NCBI RefSeq assembly: GCF_010119205.1
Contig: NZ_WRXM01000002.1
Span: 426,982-490,981, forward strand
Origin: Haloarcula limicola
Lineage (GTDB): Archaea; Halobacteriota; Halobacteria; Halobacteriales; Haloarculaceae
Length of the DNA: 64,000 nt
Reading direction: 5' to 3'
The notes under the pieces are model-generated. The model was not told where the DNA came from, searched no databases, and saw only the letters and a list, made by a program, of their open reading frames with translations. How positions within the stretch are numbered: the stretch's first letter is position 1; each line of letters begins with the position of its first letter. Below are positions 31,697 to 64,000 of the stretch, one piece after another. Both the position numbers and the translations under genes were made by a program.

Positions 31697-32410
31697 GTGA
31701 ACCCGAGCCGCGTCGACTCCATCGTCGACCTGACCTACGGACTGCTGATCGCAGTCTCGGTCGGTCTGATCGTCGTTGCCGGAAACGCCATCGGACTGGC
31801 ATTCGGGTTCGGGGTGTTACTCTCCTACGTCCTCCACGTCGTCTGGAAGATGGCTCGATTCGACCCGAACTGGATGACGACAGCGGTCAAGGAGACCGTC
31901 GAGGAGACAGTCGACGAGACGGTCGGCGAGACAGTCGAAGAGAAGGTTGGCGAGACTGTCGAGAAGACTGTCGACGAAACCGTTAGTGAGACCGTGGAGA
32001 AGACTGTCGACGAAACCGTTAGCGAGACCGTCGAGGAGACGGTCGGCGAGACGGTGGAGAAGACGGTCGGTGAAACCGTCGAAAAGACAGTCGACGATAC
32101 CGTCGAAGAGAAAGTTGGAGAAACCGTCGAGAAGACGGTTGACGAAACGGTCGGCGAGACGGTAGAAGAGACGGTCGAGAAGACAGTCGAGGAAAAAGTC
32201 GGCGAGACCGTCGAAAAGACGGTCGATGAGACGGTAGAGGAGACGGTCGGAGAGACAGTCGAAGAGACGGTAGAGGAGACGGTCGAGAAGACGGTCGAAG
32301 AGAAAGTCGGAGAAACAGTCGAGAAGACTCTCGAAGAACAGATAGCGGCCGAAGACGCAGCCGACGAAGCGGACGAGGGTACCGAGGACGCAGAGGACGA
32401 GGCTCGATGA
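31697..32410 (+). CDS. Membrane-anchored tetrapeptide-repeat protein upstream of pitA
   Basis: A 237-aa protein starting at GTG 31697. Residues 10-50 hold two adjacent hydrophobic spans. Residues 65-216 consist of 38 uninterrupted tetrapeptides of the form [E/D/G/S/K]-[E/K]-T-V (ETVE, KTVD, EKVG variants), then an acidic tail. The exact four-residue period puts Val at every fourth position, with Glu and Lys alternating between them; a long charged helix or coiled coil with right-handed twist is the likely form. Its stop overlaps the ATG of the phosphate transporter gene by four bases, so the two are coupled. PitA-type transporters often have a PhoU-like (DUF47) partner in this position; this protein is unrelated to that family. 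Function unknown. Confidence 0.8.
   Translation: MNPSRVDSIVDLTYGLLIAVSVGLIVVAGNAIGLAFGFGVLLSYVLHVVWKMARFDPNWMTTAVKETVEETVDETVGETVEEKVGETVEKTVDETVSETVEKTVDETVSETVEETVGETVEKTVGETVEKTVDDTVEEKVGETVEKTVDETVGETVEETVEKTVEEKVGETVEKTVDETVEETVGETVEETVEETVEKTVEEKVGETVEKTLEEQIAAEDAADEADEGTEDAEDEAR
31889..32344 (+). repeat. Tandem 12-bp coding repeat (38 units)
   Basis: The 456 bases encoding residues 65-216 of the preceding protein. Units are variants of GAGACNGTCGAN. Larger blocks recur, notably EEKVGETVEKTVDETV at four places with small changes, which suggests growth by slippage or unequal crossover of multi-unit blocks. Third-position differences between units show the array is not newly formed. Confidence 0.9.
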
Positions 32411-50155: not shown

Positions 50156-50983
50156 ATGACTGGGTCTACTCGATTCGCCGAGCAACTTGGTGGATCGGTC
50201 GGAATTGGGCCGCTTAAACACGTTCTCTCGGCGGTGTACAACGGCGTTGCTGACCCGAGCGCCGTCCCGGCGAAGGTCGAACGCTGGGTCGGGAAGCGAC
50301 ATCCACTATTGTTCAGAAAATACCTCCTGCAAAAGAACAGGAGCGTATATGGGTATTGTGAGCCCCCCGACCCACTGCAATTAATAAATGTCGATCCTGA
50401 TAGCGTCTCCCAAGCACTTGCGGTCGAGCACGGCTGTTATTACTGGCAACATCACAAGTGTGGGACGATTCTGGACGGCCCCTGGGATCAAGACACGACG
50501 CCGGTAGACGAGCTGCTGAAAGTTCGGGCATTAAGTAACCACTTCAAACATGACGTCGAGTGGAAAGAGACAGCCTTGTACGCCGAAATTATAGAGTCAC
50601 ACACCCACGAGGAGGCGCTCTCGCAACTGGAGATCTACGACAAACTGTACACCGACCTGCAAGACGGGTACAAGACGTCCTTTGAGTTACCGGAAACGGA
50701 CTTCATGGAGGAAATTTGCGTCTGTATCGGCCGTCATGGCGAGATACTGTTCTCCCACAGCGGAACACATCGACTCGCGTTGGTGAGAGCCCTCGAACTA
50801 GACGAGGTCCCAGTCAGAGTGATGGTTCGCCACGCGAAGTGGCAGGAAATTCGGGAATCTCTCTCGCACCGACTGAACGATGCGAACAAGGAGGTGGCCG
50901 ACTTTGAGGAGTATCTTGACCACCCCGACCTCCACAAGTTTCGCTCTGAGGAGAAATACGTCACCGAGAGCTACAGAGGCTAG
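50156..50983 (+). CDS. ParB-fold protein of glycan island (first paralog)
   Basis: A 275-aa protein with a C-terminal ParB/sulfiredoxin-like domain, EICVCIGRHGEILFSHSG then THRLALVRALELDEVPVRVM, where the GxHRL motif is the nucleotide-binding core of ParB-type folds. Residues 1-150 form a conserved N-terminal region (GTILDGPWDQDTTPVDELL) also found in the gene at the right end of the window. ParB itself hydrolyses CTP, but many ParB-fold proteins in polysaccharide clusters are not partition proteins. There is no DNA-binding helix-turn-helix here, and no parA neighbour, so chromosome partitioning is unlikely. A kinase or nucleotide-using role in glycan synthesis is possible. Confidence 0.7.
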   Translation: MTGSTRFAEQLGGSVGIGPLKHVLSAVYNGVADPSAVPAKVERWVGKRHPLLFRKYLLQKNRSVYGYCEPPDPLQLINVDPDSVSQALAVEHGCYYWQHHKCGTILDGPWDQDTTPVDELLKVRALSNHFKHDVEWKETALYAEIIESHTHEEALSQLEIYDKLYTDLQDGYKTSFELPETDFMEEICVCIGRHGEILFSHSGTHRLALVRALELDEVPVRVMVRHAKWQEIRESLSHRLNDANKEVADFEEYLDHPDLHKFRSEEKYVTESYRG

Positions 50984-51382: not shown

Positions 51383-51922
51383 ATGCTATGCAGATGGGGC
51401 CGCTGGGCAGGGATTTTACGCAGCGATTCGCCGCTACATACGGTGCTGAACGTGCTACTGATAGCCAGCCTCGTCTTCGCTATCGGTAGTGTCGGGTACG
51501 TCTTTCTCTTTCCAATGCAGAGTGAGCCGTTTTCGGAACTCTACCTGCTTACGGAAAACGAAAGCGGGCATCTAGTCGCTGAGGACTATCCTCGTCAGAT
51601 TGAACAAGGGGAAAGCCGCGAACTCGTCGTCGGGATCCGAAATAGAGAACGAGCCCGAACTGAATATACGGTCGTCGTCCAGATGCAAGAGGTGCGCACT
51701 GTCCGTAACCATACAGTTGTCCAAAACGCTACAAAGGTACGCCGATTTCAAACGACACTCGCTCCCAGAGAGCGGTGGCACCGCCCGCATACTATCAGCC
51801 CAACGACGGAAGGACAGTTGCAGTTACAGTATCTCTTATATAAGGGCGCACCGAGGCAACCACTAAATCGGTCTACTGCGTATCGCGAAGTGCATCTCCA
51901 GATGAATGTTACGGAGCGGTAA
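51383..51922 (+). CDS. DUF1616-like membrane-anchored protein
   Basis: A 179-aa protein with a single N-terminal membrane span (about residues 22-45, VLNVLLIASLVFAIGSVGYV) and an extracytoplasmic beta-rich domain: SELYLLTENESGHLVAEDYP, ELVVGIRNRERARTEYTVVV and TTEGQLQLQYLLYKG. This is the pattern of the DUF1616 domain, commonly encoded in archaeal surface-glycan loci, with several N-x-S/T sequons (for example NHT, NAT, NRS, NVT) that could be glycosylated. Function unknown. Confidence 0.75.
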   Translation: MLCRWGRWAGILRSDSPLHTVLNVLLIASLVFAIGSVGYVFLFPMQSEPFSELYLLTENESGHLVAEDYPRQIEQGESRELVVGIRNRERARTEYTVVVQMQEVRTVRNHTVVQNATKVRRFQTTLAPRERWHRPHTISPTTEGQLQLQYLLYKGAPRQPLNRSTAYREVHLQMNVTER

Positions 51923-54574: not shown

Positions 54575-55891
54575 CTATCTAATACCGCTTTGCTGTTGCA
54601 GTGAGTGCAGTATCACAGCCGCGAAACAAAACAGTATTCCAGACAGTCCTAGAAACCCAGAGACGATACCGAGGCCGATCGGGAACGTGTTGGTCGAGGT
54701 GTAGTTCGTAATCGTCCAGTAGGTGAACGCGAGGCCACCGAACCAACAGAGAAACCCGGGTAGTCCGAGTGCCGTAATTGGACGTTCCCTCTCTATCGTT
54801 CGTAAGATATTGCTCACTAACGTGATTCCGTGAGATATCGGGTGGTGACTACTTGTATTCTCATTATCATAGTTCACGTTCGTCCCAACCTCTACGATAT
54901 CGTAGTTGCGCTCGTGAGCATGATGAAGGATATCCGTACTTGCACTCATCTGACTCCCTATCCCTGGATCGTTCGCGAGGTTCTCGAAGGCTCTGGGTGA
55001 GTAGACCCGGAATCCACATTGCGTGTCCTTAACCCAGGACTTGGGTCGTATGGCACCAAAGCTAAGATTGGTCAGGAAATTAATAACGAGGAGTCCCAAC
55101 TTTCGGTAATACGGTGCGTTCGTCTCACCATCCCCAACGAACCGACTCCCAATAACTATCTCGGACTGACTTTTCGCCTGAAATTCGACCAGTTTTGGGA
55201 TGTCTGATGGATCGTGCTGTCCATCTGCATCCAACACCACGAGATGAGAAACGCACGCCCGTTCGGCCTGTTCGAACAATGAATGCAGCGTCGCGCCGTA
55301 GCCGCGGTTTGTTTCGTGTTCGACAACGATTGCACCCGCCTGTTTCGCTTTAACAGCGGTTCTATCCTCACTGCCGTCGTCAACAACAAGCACTTCGTCT
55401 GCGTATTCGAGGCCCTCTTTAACCACATTCCCAATAGTTGCTTCCTCATTGTACGCTGGAATTCCCACTAGTACCCGTTCCCCACGTTCTAACGGGGGTT
55501 TGCTTCGCGAGTCGACGAGAAATGAGTCCGACTCCTGCAGTACGTTCATACTCGCTTCGAGATCTATCCGGGAGGTTGGGTCGTCGTGAAAGACGAGGCC
55601 CGGAAAGCCGGCTTCACGTGCAGTCTCAAGTAAACACTCTTTCATGGACTGCTGGTCGAACAGTGCATTGCAGTCTACGATACGGGCTCCGAGCGCACGC
55701 GCGAAAACTCGCCACTCCTGATTACCACCGTCCGTACCAACGATGATCGCTTGATGACCGTTCCGTCGTGCATTGATGATTTCGGCAGCGATCGATTCAG
55801 CGGCACCTTCTGTAGCTACTATCCCAACTGCAGGGTTATTAGTTGATACCGTCAGATTGCCATCGATATTAATCTCGCCTACTTTTGACAT
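54575..55891 (-). CDS. GT2 polyprenyl-phosphate glycosyltransferase with extra N-terminal domain (AglJ/DPM1-like)
   Basis: A 438-aa protein. Residues 1-125 form an additional Rossmann-like domain (VGIVATEGAAESIAAEIINA, ARIVDCNALFDQQSM) absent from ordinary DPM1-type enzymes. The GT2 domain follows: RVLVGIPAYNEEATIGNVV, VVDDGSEDRT and VVLDADGQHDPSDI with the metal-binding DAD. A block KDTQCGFRVYSPRA matches the dolichol-phosphate glucose/mannose synthase type. Two C-terminal membrane spans (about 370-392 and 400-430) anchor it. It likely charges dolichol phosphate with a sugar. The neighbour on the left is convergent. Confidence 0.82.
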   Translation of the reverse strand: MSKVGEINIDGNLTVSTNNPAVGIVATEGAAESIAAEIINARRNGHQAIIVGTDGGNQEWRVFARALGARIVDCNALFDQQSMKECLLETAREAGFPGLVFHDDPTSRIDLEASMNVLQESDSFLVDSRSKPPLERGERVLVGIPAYNEEATIGNVVKEGLEYADEVLVVDDGSEDRTAVKAKQAGAIVVEHETNRGYGATLHSLFEQAERACVSHLVVLDADGQHDPSDIPKLVEFQAKSQSEIVIGSRFVGDGETNAPYYRKLGLLVINFLTNLSFGAIRPKSWVKDTQCGFRVYSPRAFENLANDPGIGSQMSASTDILHHAHERNYDIVEVGTNVNYDNENTSSHHPISHGITLVSNILRTIERERPITALGLPGFLCWFGGLAFTYWTITNYTSTNTFPIGLGIVSGFLGLSGILFCFAAVILHSLQQQSGIR

Positions 55892-56484
55892 GGAATATAT
55901 AGTTGCCTGCTGTAGTGTGGAATCGTTCGTTCAATCTGCATTATTGACAGACTCCGGCAACAATACATTTGTTGAATATATAACTATTGGGGCGTCCGCC
56001 GTTAGAGATCCGATAGCCATAGTTCGCAGTAATACTCTCTTCTAATCACATTAAGAATCCTATCAGTTCTCACCTCCCAAGCTAGTTCTACTCGAACGAT
56101 TGGTTTGCTTATCGGGAATCGGACCACATCACATTAACTATTCCTCTAAATTACAGAAATAAACCTTCACAGCATCCGCTGGCGTATTATAACGGGAGTA
56201 CATATGTTATTCATATCTCCGGATTTTCTCTCGTTTGATAGTCGCTACCACCAACGAATATAACGGACCGTTTATCACTGAGTCAGTATTTAGAACTTAG
56301 TATGTTCGGGAGTGTTCAATAGCAAACAATAGAACCGTTTTACATTCCCTCTCTATCTTTTTCCTCTGTAAGCTGCTTCTAACCGGCAAAAACGAGAGAG
56401 CTATGTCTTCGCTGTGAGAGTTCCATAAATAAGACGCTGGCAGATTTAAGAGGCGGGGGGTTGACAGTTCTGGTAGGGACTCAG
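55892..56484. promoter_or_regulatory. AT-rich divergent intergenic region
   Basis: 593 bases with no gene. CCATAAATAAG at 56423-56433 is a likely TATA box for the deacetylase operon; a second AT element (GATTTAAG, 56443-56450) lies 35-42 nt before ATG 56485. On the other side, ATATAT at 55894-55900 is too close to the GT2 start (55891) to be its TATA box. Confidence 0.45.
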
Positions 56485-57336
56485 ATGCATCGAACACAGC
56501 AGAACATCATTTCATTCGATCTAGAACACTGGTACATGGCGACGTTACTGCGAGATGAGGTGACCAACCCAACGGCACGACTCGAGGAGTCTGTTGATAT
56601 TGTGTTATCGTTGCTCAGCGAGTACAACACGCGCGCGACGTTCTTTGTCGTCGGGACGATCGCCGAAAAGTACCCGAATCTCATGGAACGAATCGTCGGA
56701 GATGGCCACGAAATTGGGTCACACGGACATACGCATACCCCAATTTTCGAACTAAACAAAGCAGAGTTCGCGGAGGAGTTAACTCGAAGTTCGGATGCGA
56801 TAACGTCTGCTGTCGGGCAACGGCCTCTCGGATTTCGCGCTCCGAACTTTTCGATCACCCGAAAGACATCATGGGCACTCAACGTTCTCACAAGTCAGGG
56901 TTTCAGATACGACTCAAGTGTCTTTCCCGTGCGCACGCCAATGTACGGTGTCACCAATGCACCGGTAGAGCCGTACGTCCCTGGTGAAGACTCGTTCTCG
57001 AAAACAGCCGGTCGGGGTGCTCACGAGTTGGTTGAGTTTCCGCTTGCCGTGTTTCACCCGACGTTTCGTGTGCCCATCGCGGGTGGCTTCTACGCGCGGT
57101 TGCTCCCCTCAAAACTCCTCAGGAAGGGAATCAAAACACTCAACCGCCGGGGGATACCAGCTACGCTGTATTTCCATCCGTGGGAGTTCAACCCCCGTGT
57201 CGTCCGAACTGACATCTCACTACACAAGCAGTTCGTCAGCTTTCACGGTGTTTCGTCGTTACGAGACACTGTCGCACGGATACTGGAATCGTTTGAATTC
57301 GGTCCGTTACGGGAGCTTCTACCTGCCTATGCCTGA
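56485..57336 (+). CDS. Polysaccharide deacetylase, NodB/PEP-CTERM-locus type
   Basis: A 283-aa cytosolic-type deacetylase. Active-site motifs are intact: ISFDLEHWY at the N-terminus (Asp base), the HxxxH metal site in GSHGHTHTPIF and FRAPNFSITR with the conserved RAPNFS block. The C-terminus YFHPWEFNPR has the HPWEF motif typical of deacetylases from exopolysaccharide loci. ATG 56485 was chosen; an in-frame TTG at 56461 is possible. Its stop overlaps the FemAB-like gene by eight bases. It would remove an N-acetyl group from a hexosamine, exposing a free amine. Confidence 0.88.
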   Translation: MHRTQQNIISFDLEHWYMATLLRDEVTNPTARLEESVDIVLSLLSEYNTRATFFVVGTIAEKYPNLMERIVGDGHEIGSHGHTHTPIFELNKAEFAEELTRSSDAITSAVGQRPLGFRAPNFSITRKTSWALNVLTSQGFRYDSSVFPVRTPMYGVTNAPVEPYVPGEDSFSKTAGRGAHELVEFPLAVFHPTFRVPIAGGFYARLLPSKLLRKGIKTLNRRGIPATLYFHPWEFNPRVVRTDISLHKQFVSFHGVSSLRDTVARILESFEFGPLRELLPAYA

Positions 57337-58375
57337 GATCACAGCCACCGTTTCCCGGATATCCGAGAGCGAATTCAACGGTGAGTGGCAATCCTTCGTC
57401 CAGGACCATCCGATTGCGACGCCCTTTCACTCAAGTCGCTGGCTGGACGCCGTTGCATCTACTTTTGGATACGACGAACGTCAGACACTCGTTTATCGCT
57501 CTGATCGGGGCGAACCTATCGCTGCGATACCCGGGTTCCTTACTCCGGAATTCTTGGGTCGCAGTATCGTCAACCCGTTCTGTGAGTATGGCTTTCCGCT
57601 ACTCGCTCCTGATGTAGCGCAAGAACCAGTGTTCGCCAAGATAGATGAGAACGCCGGCCTGTTACACGCACGGATAATCAAAGAAACCGAGTGGAGCGGT
57701 GTCAGTCGATATAACTGTTCGGGCTACGGGGGACTCGATACCGGGATCTCAATTAGGCTGCCGACGACACGGTCCTATGACGATGTCTGGAACCATACGT
57801 TCAAGAAACGGGCACGCAAATCTGTGCGCAGTGCTCAGCGGGACGACCTGACCATCTCAACAGGCAGCGTTGACTCGTATTACCCTCTATATGTCTCGAC
57901 CATGGAACGACTCGGAAGTCCACAGTTCCCGAAGGCTTTCTTTCGGGCACTGAAGCAGAATTTCGGTGCGAAGATGCGTATTCTTTTAGCTCAGAGAGAA
58001 GAGACGCCGGTTGCAGGCATCCTCTGTTTAGAATGGAACGGCGAAAAAATCGTCTGGAGTAACGCGTCTATCCCACGGTTCTGGGATGATAACCCGAACC
58101 ACCTACTCTATGCCACCGCAATCAAGGCGGCCTGCGAGAGCGATGTACAGGTTATTGATTTCGGCCGCTCTCAGACCGAATCGAGCGTCCACCAGTTCAA
58201 GTCCCAGTTCGGCGGGCACAACTATCGACTCACTAGCTTTGTCGACCCGCCCCATCGGACTCCTCGAGCAGACATCGAGGGGTACGGCAGACTGGCACCG
58301 TTAACCAAGCGACTATCGCCCATCGTCACCCAGAGACACATTGGGCCACAATTGAAACGCTTCCTTCATGAATGA
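57329..58375 (+). CDS. FemAB-like (GNAT-fold) acyl/aminoacyltransferase
   Basis: A 348-aa protein of the FemAB/BioF2-like double-GNAT family found in exopolysaccharide loci. The N-terminal domain has PIATPFHSSRWLDAVASTFG and the second GNAT domain has SVDSYYPLYVSTMERLGSPQ, then EETPVAGILCLEWNGEKIVW and FGRSQTESSVHQFKSQFGG near the C-terminus, the typical FGRS block. Bacterial FemABX enzymes transfer amino acids from aminoacyl-tRNA to a cell-wall precursor; relatives in polysaccharide loci are uncharacterised. ATG 57329 (MPEITATVSR) overlaps the deacetylase by eight bases; upstream extension lies in that gene. It overlaps the next gene by eight bases as well. Confidence 0.85.
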   Translation: MPEITATVSRISESEFNGEWQSFVQDHPIATPFHSSRWLDAVASTFGYDERQTLVYRSDRGEPIAAIPGFLTPEFLGRSIVNPFCEYGFPLLAPDVAQEPVFAKIDENAGLLHARIIKETEWSGVSRYNCSGYGGLDTGISIRLPTTRSYDDVWNHTFKKRARKSVRSAQRDDLTISTGSVDSYYPLYVSTMERLGSPQFPKAFFRALKQNFGAKMRILLAQREETPVAGILCLEWNGEKIVWSNASIPRFWDDNPNHLLYATAIKAACESDVQVIDFGRSQTESSVHQFKSQFGGHNYRLTSFVDPPHRTPRADIEGYGRLAPLTKRLSPIVTQRHIGPQLKRFLHE

Positions 58376-59078
58376 ACTCACACTCGCAGTGTTCGTTGTC
58401 ATCATCCTCGGGACGAACGTGTACTGGTGGCGCCGTGAACGCATCACACGGCAAAGTCTCACGCACAGTCGAGAACGTCTCGAAGCAGCTCCAAACGAAC
58501 AAAACGACACCAGAGTACCACAGGGAGATGGAACCAATATACAGCGAAAGCGCGCAGCGGAAGCCGCCGCTGAAATGCTGGAAACAGCGCCGGAAACCCT
58601 CCCCGAAGAGGTCTACCAATTAGAACAAAAAGTTCGGTCGCTTCAAGGTGAACTCACTGATATTCGCACCCAATGGGCAGATTCGTGGTGGAACGCCCGC
58701 TCAGCCCCCTCGGTCGACGAGACGAGCCCCCATCTCTACACCGTAGAACTGCCGGATGGAAAACTAGCCGAGGCTAAGGCATTCGCTAAACGGGCTGTCG
58801 ATGACGAATATGGTATCACGATTGTCTCCGTGAGTGGAGAGGACGTGTTCGCAGTCGGGGTCGGAGACGCGATGGTGCCGCGATTTAATGCGGAGGATAT
58901 CGCCGACCAAATCACGGAGATAGGCGGCGGCGGTGGCGGCGGTGATAACCGCGTCGCCACCGGCGGCGGGGTAGCCGAACTCGAACAGGCAACGAACCAG
59001 ATCGCATCGCGAATACGAAACCGGATACAATCGGAGACAATTTCGAACGAACACAACGAATCGCAGTCCCTTAAGTAG
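58368..59078 (+). CDS. Membrane-anchored DHHA1-domain protein (AlaRS C-terminal-like)
   Basis: A 236-aa protein. Residues 4-21 are an N-terminal membrane span (LTLAVFVVIILGTNVYWW) followed by a charged stretch. A coiled coil covers about 60-105 (EEVYQLEQKVRSLQGELTDI). Residues 115-220 match the DHHA1 domain that forms the C-terminal part of alanyl-tRNA synthetase: strand HLYTVELPDGKLAEAKAFAK, VSGEDVFAVGVGDAMVPRF, and the glycine run Gly186-192 then ATGGG, followed by the final helix VAELEQATNQIASRIR. No catalytic DHH half, editing or synthetase core is present. It overlaps the FemAB-like gene by eight bases. A membrane tRNA-binding adaptor is a possible role. Confidence 0.72.
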   Translation: MNELTLAVFVVIILGTNVYWWRRERITRQSLTHSRERLEAAPNEQNDTRVPQGDGTNIQRKRAAEAAAEMLETAPETLPEEVYQLEQKVRSLQGELTDIRTQWADSWWNARSAPSVDETSPHLYTVELPDGKLAEAKAFAKRAVDDEYGITIVSVSGEDVFAVGVGDAMVPRFNAEDIADQITEIGGGGGGGDNRVATGGGVAELEQATNQIASRIRNRIQSETISNEHNESQSLK

Positions 59079-63434: not shown

Positions 63435-64000
63435 TCATGAGATCAAATCTTCTAAGTCGGGGTGGCCAACGAATTTCCGAGCTTGCTCAGACAGATCACT
63501 GAGGGAACGTCTTTGTCGAAATTCATCGCGAATCGCCTGCCACTGCTCGTGACGAACACGAACCAAAACGGGAATTTTAGGAATATTACATAGATATGCG
63601 ATGGCGAGCCGGTGTCGGCCATTCGTGAAGTGTAGAAATGTGCCATCACGACCAATATCGACGGTTATCTCGTCGTGAGTCGAAGGACCGAGACTTTCGG
63701 TACCAATTGCCCCGTCTGGTTCGTTATTCCGTTTATATCCATCAGAATTAATAGACTGTTTAAGGTGGTCGAGATATTTGATTCGCTCTTTTAGTTCCGC
63801 CTCTGACTGACATCCCCAGATTTCTGCCCCCCGTTGAAATCGATCAAGACATGCGTTGTAATACTTCGTTTGCTCAAACGGGATTTTCTCGTCAATCATA
63901 CTCATGATCAGCTTCCATTCCGTATACTCGGTAATTGGGACTCGCTGCCGATCCCAATCACCGGTAAGAATATCTCCAAACTCAGCATATTGATGACACG
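63435..64000 (-). CDS. ParB-fold protein of glycan island (second paralog, partial)
   Basis: The reading frame stays open to the window edge, so the N-terminus lies beyond 64000; an internal ATG at 63905 is not the start, because the sequence upstream of it (YAEFGDILTGDWDRQRVPIT) aligns with YYWQHHKCGTILDGPWDQDT of the protein at 50156. At least 188 residues are visible. The ParB-like core DIGRDGTFLHFTNGRHRLAI then AYLCNIPKIPVLVRVRHEQW parallels IGRHGEILFSHSGTHRLALV of the paralog. It lacks any helix-turn-helix. Two divergent copies 13 kb apart in one glycan island point to a recurring role in this pathway, not partitioning. Confidence 0.75.
   Translation of the reverse strand, partial: CHQYAEFGDILTGDWDRQRVPITEYTEWKLIMSMIDEKIPFEQTKYYNACLDRFQRGAEIWGCQSEAELKERIKYLDHLKQSINSDGYKRNNEPDGAIGTESLGPSTHDEITVDIGRDGTFLHFTNGRHRLAIAYLCNIPKIPVLVRVRHEQWQAIRDEFRQRRSLSDLSEQARKFVGHPDLEDLIS

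Follow-up and report, generated by a model that had tools for sequence, protein, structure and literature searches.

A candidate tRNA-dependent system for aminoacylation of a lipid-linked amino sugar in haloarchaea, with a membrane-anchored C-Ala protein

A three-gene cluster of the haloarchaeon Haloarcula limicola encodes a NodB-type polysaccharide deacetylase, a FemAB-like transferase and a membrane-anchored protein carrying the C-Ala module of alanyl-tRNA synthetase (AlaRS). The best model that we can offer for it, one that we place slightly on the probable side, is deacetylation of an N-acetylhexosamine (HexNAc) followed by transfer of an amino acid from a membrane-held aminoacyl-tRNA. The cluster lies in a 64,000-nucleotide stretch of contig NZ_WRXM01000002.1, here called the window (Table 1). 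The model builds on observed gene structure, protein families, folds, predicted topology and the strict linkage of the FemAB and C-Ala genes, and from these we infer a tRNA donor, an amino acid, an acceptor and the formation of a FemAB/C-Ala complex. The module would modify a glycan at the cytoplasmic face: a polyprenyl-phosphate glycosyltransferase would make a lipid-linked HexNAc, the deacetylase would remove its acetyl group, and the FemAB-like enzyme would join an amino acid taken from aminoacyl-tRNA to the amine so exposed, yielding an N-aminoacyl-hexosamine. The C-Ala protein would grip the tRNA elbow and keep the aminoacyl-tRNA beside the transferase at the membrane, and the modified sugar, once exported, would become part of a surface polysaccharide or glycan.

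Bacteria are known to modify surface polymers in a tRNA-dependent manner, in peptidoglycan bridges and in lipids; to our knowledge nothing of the kind has been described in archaea, and a literature search found nothing linking FemAB with haloarchaea. The initial annotation presented all three genes together as a candidate new system. The pairing of deacetylase and FemAB is already known (families TIGR03006 and TIGR03019), so the new element is the membrane C-Ala partner. We consider it an evenly balanced proposition that the cluster represents an undescribed archaeal system in which a lipid-linked amino sugar is aminoacylated from tRNA and C-Ala serves as membrane tRNA receptor, that it points by association to aminoacyl-tRNA as the donor for TIGR03019, and that it supplies candidate genes for wall chemistry of the N-glycyl-glucosamine type. 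If true, this would be the first glycan aminoacylation system of its kind described in archaea, and a stand-alone membrane-anchored C-Ala acting as tRNA receptor would be a new route for diverting aminoacyl-tRNA from translation. TIGR03019 FemAB proteins are widespread, and we know of none that has been characterised and of no biochemical explanation for their pairing with a deacetylase; the linkage described here is a genomic hint to their donor.

Table 1. Positions of the cluster genes and their features in the window
Feature	Position	Strand	Length or basis
GT2 polyprenyl-phosphate glycosyltransferase, AglJ/PpgS-like	54575-55891	-	NCBIfam matches
NodB-type polysaccharide deacetylase	56485-57336	+	283 aa
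FemAB-like transferase	57329-58375	+	348 aa
Membrane-anchored C-Ala protein	58368-59078	+	236 aa
8-base overlap ATGCCTGA, deacetylase stop / FemAB start	57329-57336	+	from sequence
8-base overlap ATGAATGA, FemAB stop / C-Ala start	58368-58375	+	from sequence
Codons for F290-K291 of the FemAB-like transferase	58196-58201	+	aligned with catalytic F304-K305 of FemX
C-Ala protein, hydrophobic span (residues 1-22), then RRER	58368-58433	+	hydropathy in 20 homologues
C-Ala helical subdomain (residues 55-111)	58530-58700	+	profile alignment to 2zvf; model
DHHA1 globular subdomain with GG motif GGGGGGGDNRVATGGG	58719-58976	+	profile alignment, predicted fold

The three genes follow one another with overlaps of exactly eight bases, as initially annotated, and an in-frame TTG at 56461 offers a possible upstream start for the deacetylase. 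At the FemAB/C-Ala junction the same 8-base overlap is present in 16 of 21 loci, a count that depends on the starts chosen. Because the arrangement is found again in 20 other loci at protein identities of 23–58%, it is not a product of chance. RNA elements and tRNA genes were looked for near the operon, and none was found.

The deacetylase passes the Polysacc_deac_1 model (PF01522) with 90 bits against a gathering cut-off of 23, also matches DUF3473 (PF11959), and aligns with TIGR03006 over positions 3–271 of 272 (E = 4e-64) at 216 bits, below the curated cut-off of 276. Its active site, already described as intact from the single sequence, keeps all catalytic residues, and D12, H80/H84, R118, D143 and H231 are invariant across 14 orthologues. 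No signal peptide was seen in the protein, which we predict to act on a HexNAc and expose its amine.

The transferase matches TIGR03019 over positions 2–327 of 330 (E = 1.4e-36), at 126 bits below the curated cut-off of 260, and the FemAB family of Pfam (PF02388, E = 4e-8) at 32.9 bits against a gathering cut-off of 24, with domain 2 as the best stretch. Its best Pfam domain is Acetyltransf_6 (GNAT), and the FemAB fold is one held in common with acyl-CoA GNATs. Searched as a family with 17 orthologues, its top PDB match by sequence profile is 9wqw, an aminoacyl-tRNA-dependent peptide synthase (1.1e-8), and FemX is matched at 1.6e-6. The predicted structure is of modest confidence (pLDDT 72, with the N-terminal half, containing the first GNAT, low); Foldseek places FemX, the aminoacyl-tRNA-dependent peptide synthases Sba18/Sbb17, FemA, MprF and A-PGS at ranks 1–15, and acetyl-CoA GNATs appear only from rank 16 (E = 6e-8 versus 1e-15). 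FemX itself (E = 1e-15) aligns over the whole length with a TM of about 0.63, which suggests a double-GNAT fold. F290 and K291 are invariant in 17 orthologues; the role of Lys305 of FemX, and of the equivalent Lys329/Phe328 of DhpH-C, is treated in PMC12945691. The same Phe-Lys (FK) motif occurs in paralogues without C-Ala, so by itself it is no proof of tRNA use. Nearest relatives by modelled structure and by sequence, together with the Phe-Lys pair, favour aminoacyl-tRNA over acyl-CoA as donor but do not prove it. The initial annotation had named clustering with acyl-CoA enzymes as the outcome that would speak against tRNA use, and we found the opposite, the closest solved relatives being aminoacyl-tRNA-dependent enzymes. 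We predict a double-GNAT aminoacyl transferase, divergently related to TIGR03019.

The third protein had been read as a membrane span, a coiled coil and a DHHA1 domain. DHHA1 is now firm by family profile and predicted fold, and the module is larger than supposed: judged by profiles and model, a full C-Ala follows a single membrane span. On the single sequence, Pfam DHHA1 scores 17.8 bits, under its cut-off of 25.9, and the archaeal AlaRS model is matched at positions 746–898 of 902 (3e-7). A family profile (A1) built from 20 sequences of membrane C-Ala proteins aligns both the helical and the globular subdomain with 2zvf, the C-Ala of Archaeoglobus AlaRS (E = 3.9e-17), and matches the AlaRS tRNA complex 3wqy (E = 4.7e-16). 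The AlphaFold model (pLDDT 80) retrieves only AlaRS at Foldseek ranks 1–18, with RecJ structures coming after. Searches of the 236-aa protein for a catalytic or editing domain of AlaRS/AlaX and for a DHH catalytic domain found neither; it comprises the span and C-Ala only.

In AlaRS, C-Ala is described as a tRNA-elbow-binding module (PMC10036535, PMC10485164); the globular part and the GG motif make the contact, and in Caenorhabditis elegans the GG motif touches the D-loop (PMC10485164). Five positions of this glycine-rich motif, G188, G191, G192, A197 and G199, are invariant in 20 sequences of the membrane family. The lysine that contacts G18 of tRNA in C. elegans (K934) corresponds to Gly/Ala in the family; sampled haloarchaeal AlaRS and AlaX-L likewise lack it, so a lysine of this type is not universal to C-Ala. 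The DHHA1 part is acidic, with a charge of about −11 that is intermediate between AlaRS (−7) and AlaX-L (−14) of related organisms. In a tree with an arbitrary root and flagged long branches, the membrane proteins form a third C-Ala clade apart from haloarchaeal AlaRS and AlaX-L (support 100/97, 100/98 and 100/94). The positive-inside RRER after the N-terminal span, whose hydropathy is only moderate in a few homologues, predicts a cytoplasmic location for the soluble part, and we predict that the protein serves as a tRNA tether.

Linkage between the two genes was surveyed in 392 haloarchaeal genomes of the order, with FemAB orthologues called at E < 1e-75 using profile A2 and membrane C-Ala called with the single sequence as query at E < 1e-12 (20 genomes) or, for one further genome (G208), through the profile. 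Each gene is present in 21 genomes and both are present in 20 (Fisher p = 2e-31, kinship ignored); in all 20 of these they are adjacent, with C-Ala directly downstream of FemAB. The only FemAB orthologue without C-Ala (G159) sits in a locus cut by a contig end, and the only C-Ala without a FemAB orthologue (locus L062 of G265) has a distant FemAB paralogue as its divergent neighbour, a second association of membrane C-Ala with the FemAB kind. The DHHA1 gene is thus strictly tied to FemAB, where the initial annotation had left room for its being unlinked elsewhere. Co-occurrence of all three genes stood up in part: a close deacetylase adjoins the C-Ala gene in 14 of 20 testable loci and is absent next door in 6. 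The core is FemAB with membrane C-Ala, and the deacetylase is an optional member. Carriers, patchy across about seven families, include Halocatena, Halococcus thailandensis, Halobacterium bonnevillei, Halalkalicoccus paucihalophilus, Salinarchaeum and Actinarchaeum, and a phylum-wide sample of 393 genomes held no membrane C-Ala outside the class Halobacteria, only AlaRS itself. A 1015-aa frame in L060 that resembled a FemAB gene fusion was rejected: its N-terminal ~600 residues, rich in arginine and devoid of any domain, come from a spurious frame.

Other distant FemAB loci (E = 1e-25 to 1e-36, about 18 examined) held no C-Ala gene. At L109, L113 and L120 a distant FemAB without C-Ala has a close relative of the deacetylase directly upstream; no other tRNA-binding partner was seen at these three pairs, which are surrounded by genes for glycosyltransferases, a sulfatase and the like. 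Because many deacetylase–FemAB pairs exist without C-Ala, the C-Ala protein is not essential to the chemistry.

Such pairs also lend themselves to a different reading, in which the deacetylated sugar is re-acylated from acyl-CoA or a carrier protein and C-Ala has a structural or regulatory part. NodB/NodA and HfsH/HfsK of the Caulobacter holdfast likewise place a deacetylase before a (putative) N-acyltransferase acting on an amino sugar, and HfsK, a GNAT-family protein in the same pathway as the deacetylase HfsH, is a proposed N-acyltransferase (PMC5362036); the GNAT character of the top Pfam domain agrees with this. Those systems, for which acyl donors are proposed, have no tRNA-binding partner, unlike the window cluster, and re-acylation leaves the strict link with such a module unexplained. 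The nearest neighbours of the FemAB-like protein by structure and sequence are all aminoacyl-tRNA enzymes. We regard re-acylation as rather unlikely. C-Ala might instead bring AlaRS to the membrane through its helical dimerisation subdomain and channel Ala-tRNA to FemAB with no binding of free tRNA. The helical part that forms the archaeal AlaRS dimer is indeed kept (2zvf is the dimerisation domain), but the membrane proteins have diverged from AlaRS into their own clade, and since the GG-motif face is retained as well, it is simpler to suppose that they bind tRNA directly; recruitment of the synthetase seems distinctly unlikely.

Two further alternatives concern the acceptor and the ligand. 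MprF is structurally related to the FemAB-like protein, the C-Ala protein is membrane-bound and six loci have no adjacent close deacetylase, all of which would suit a membrane lipid or protein as acceptor in place of a sugar; the setting, a polysaccharide/glycosylation cluster in which a deacetylase and a GT2 lie close by, makes this very improbable in our view. The chance that DHHA1 senses a nucleotide or binds DNA in the manner of RecJ or GdpP, regulating glycan synthesis, appears slighter still: the domain is present in DHH phosphoesterases and RecJ follows AlaRS in the Foldseek list, but the DHH catalytic domain is missing and the top matches are specifically to AlaRS C-Ala, helical part included.

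For aminoacylation from membrane-held tRNA, the model preferred here, the nearest known arrangement is the XrtA/PEP-CTERM pair of TIGR03006 and TIGR03019, in which the same two families are adjacent in an exopolysaccharide-type locus. The window proteins match both models almost end to end; they differ in scoring under the curated cut-offs, in the extra membrane C-Ala gene and in the archaeal host. Deacetylase–FemAB pairs without C-Ala are also found in methanogens and other haloarchaea, and some FemABs from other archaeal classes exceed the TIGR03019 cut-off; the window-type haloarchaeal FemABs are a divergent sister group. FemX/FemABX and Sba18/Sbb17 have in common with the transferase a double-GNAT fold, the Phe-Lys pair and an arginine/lysine-rich helix in domain 2, although sequence identity is low (about 16%) and haloarchaea are without peptidoglycan. 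The C-Ala of AlaRS and AlaX-L has the same helical and DHHA1 subdomains and glycine-rich motif as the window protein, which unlike them is stand-alone and membrane-anchored, has no aminoacylation or editing domain and belongs to a separate clade. FemAB homologues at six loci of other archaeal classes (L148–L153) scored E = 8e-53 to 6e-35; a NodB-type deacetylase adjoins the homologue in L150, L152 and L153, and the open FemAB frame at 7212-9272 of L148 is 686 aa long.

The chemistry was implied by the initial annotation to be new, and here it has been anticipated: Halococcus morrhuae is reported to have N-glycyl-glucosaminyl bridges in its wall (Steber and Schleifer 1979, cited in PMC4187196). 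The product that we predict is of this kind: a haloarchaeal surface polysaccharide in which a deacetylated hexosamine carries an amino acid in amide linkage. We found no published account of its biosynthesis, and the 1979 observation becomes testable at the level of genes. The cluster is present in only 4 of 10 Halococcus genomes, among them H. thailandensis (L071), and H. morrhuae is not among the named hits of the carrier scan. As to the amino acid, analogy suggests alanine from the C-Ala module and glycine from the known Halococcus sugar, alanine being a mere guess. Three Halococcus genomes have in common a different FemAB-like gene at an unrelated locus (L137:8750-9760, L138:6209-7219 and L139:9561-10571), which adjoins a convergent glycosyltransferase-fold-like gene. 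We rejected its product as a C-Ala-linked enzyme, the region having no deacetylase or C-Ala match; halococci might alternatively owe aminoacyl sugars to this gene.

Against NCBIfam, the neighbouring GT2 matches the polyprenyl-phospho-GalNAc synthase PpgS (5e-31) and AglJ (1.5e-28), both under cut-off. In 13 other loci a relative directly precedes the deacetylase gene, and in the window the gene is divergent; this polyprenyl-phosphate-HexNAc-synthase-like GT2 belongs to the cluster and probably makes the lipid-linked HexNAc acceptor. In the polyprenyl-P-GalNAc pathway of mycobacterial arabinogalactan, PpgS is likewise a lipid-linked HexNAc synthase, and in the wall its sugar is finally present as a free hexosamine; we know of no FemAB or C-Ala step there, and the window GT2, unlike PpgS proper, is under the family cut-off.

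Elsewhere in the window, the gene at 51383-51922 (+) matches only the C-terminal part of DUF1616 (positions 147–307). Genes similar to it lie near several C-Ala loci, and a full-length DUF1616 relative with the membrane part lies near the paralogous deacetylase–FemAB pair of L113. The proteins of 50156-50983 (+) and 63435-63905 (-), neither of which has a match in Pfam or NCBIfam, have in common a motif of the type THRLA/RHRLA...VRVxVRHxxWQxIR, and a relative of them is present in L034. The gene at 31697-32410 (+) encodes 237 aa: a membrane span and, after it, numerous repeat units of the ETVEKTV/DETV type.
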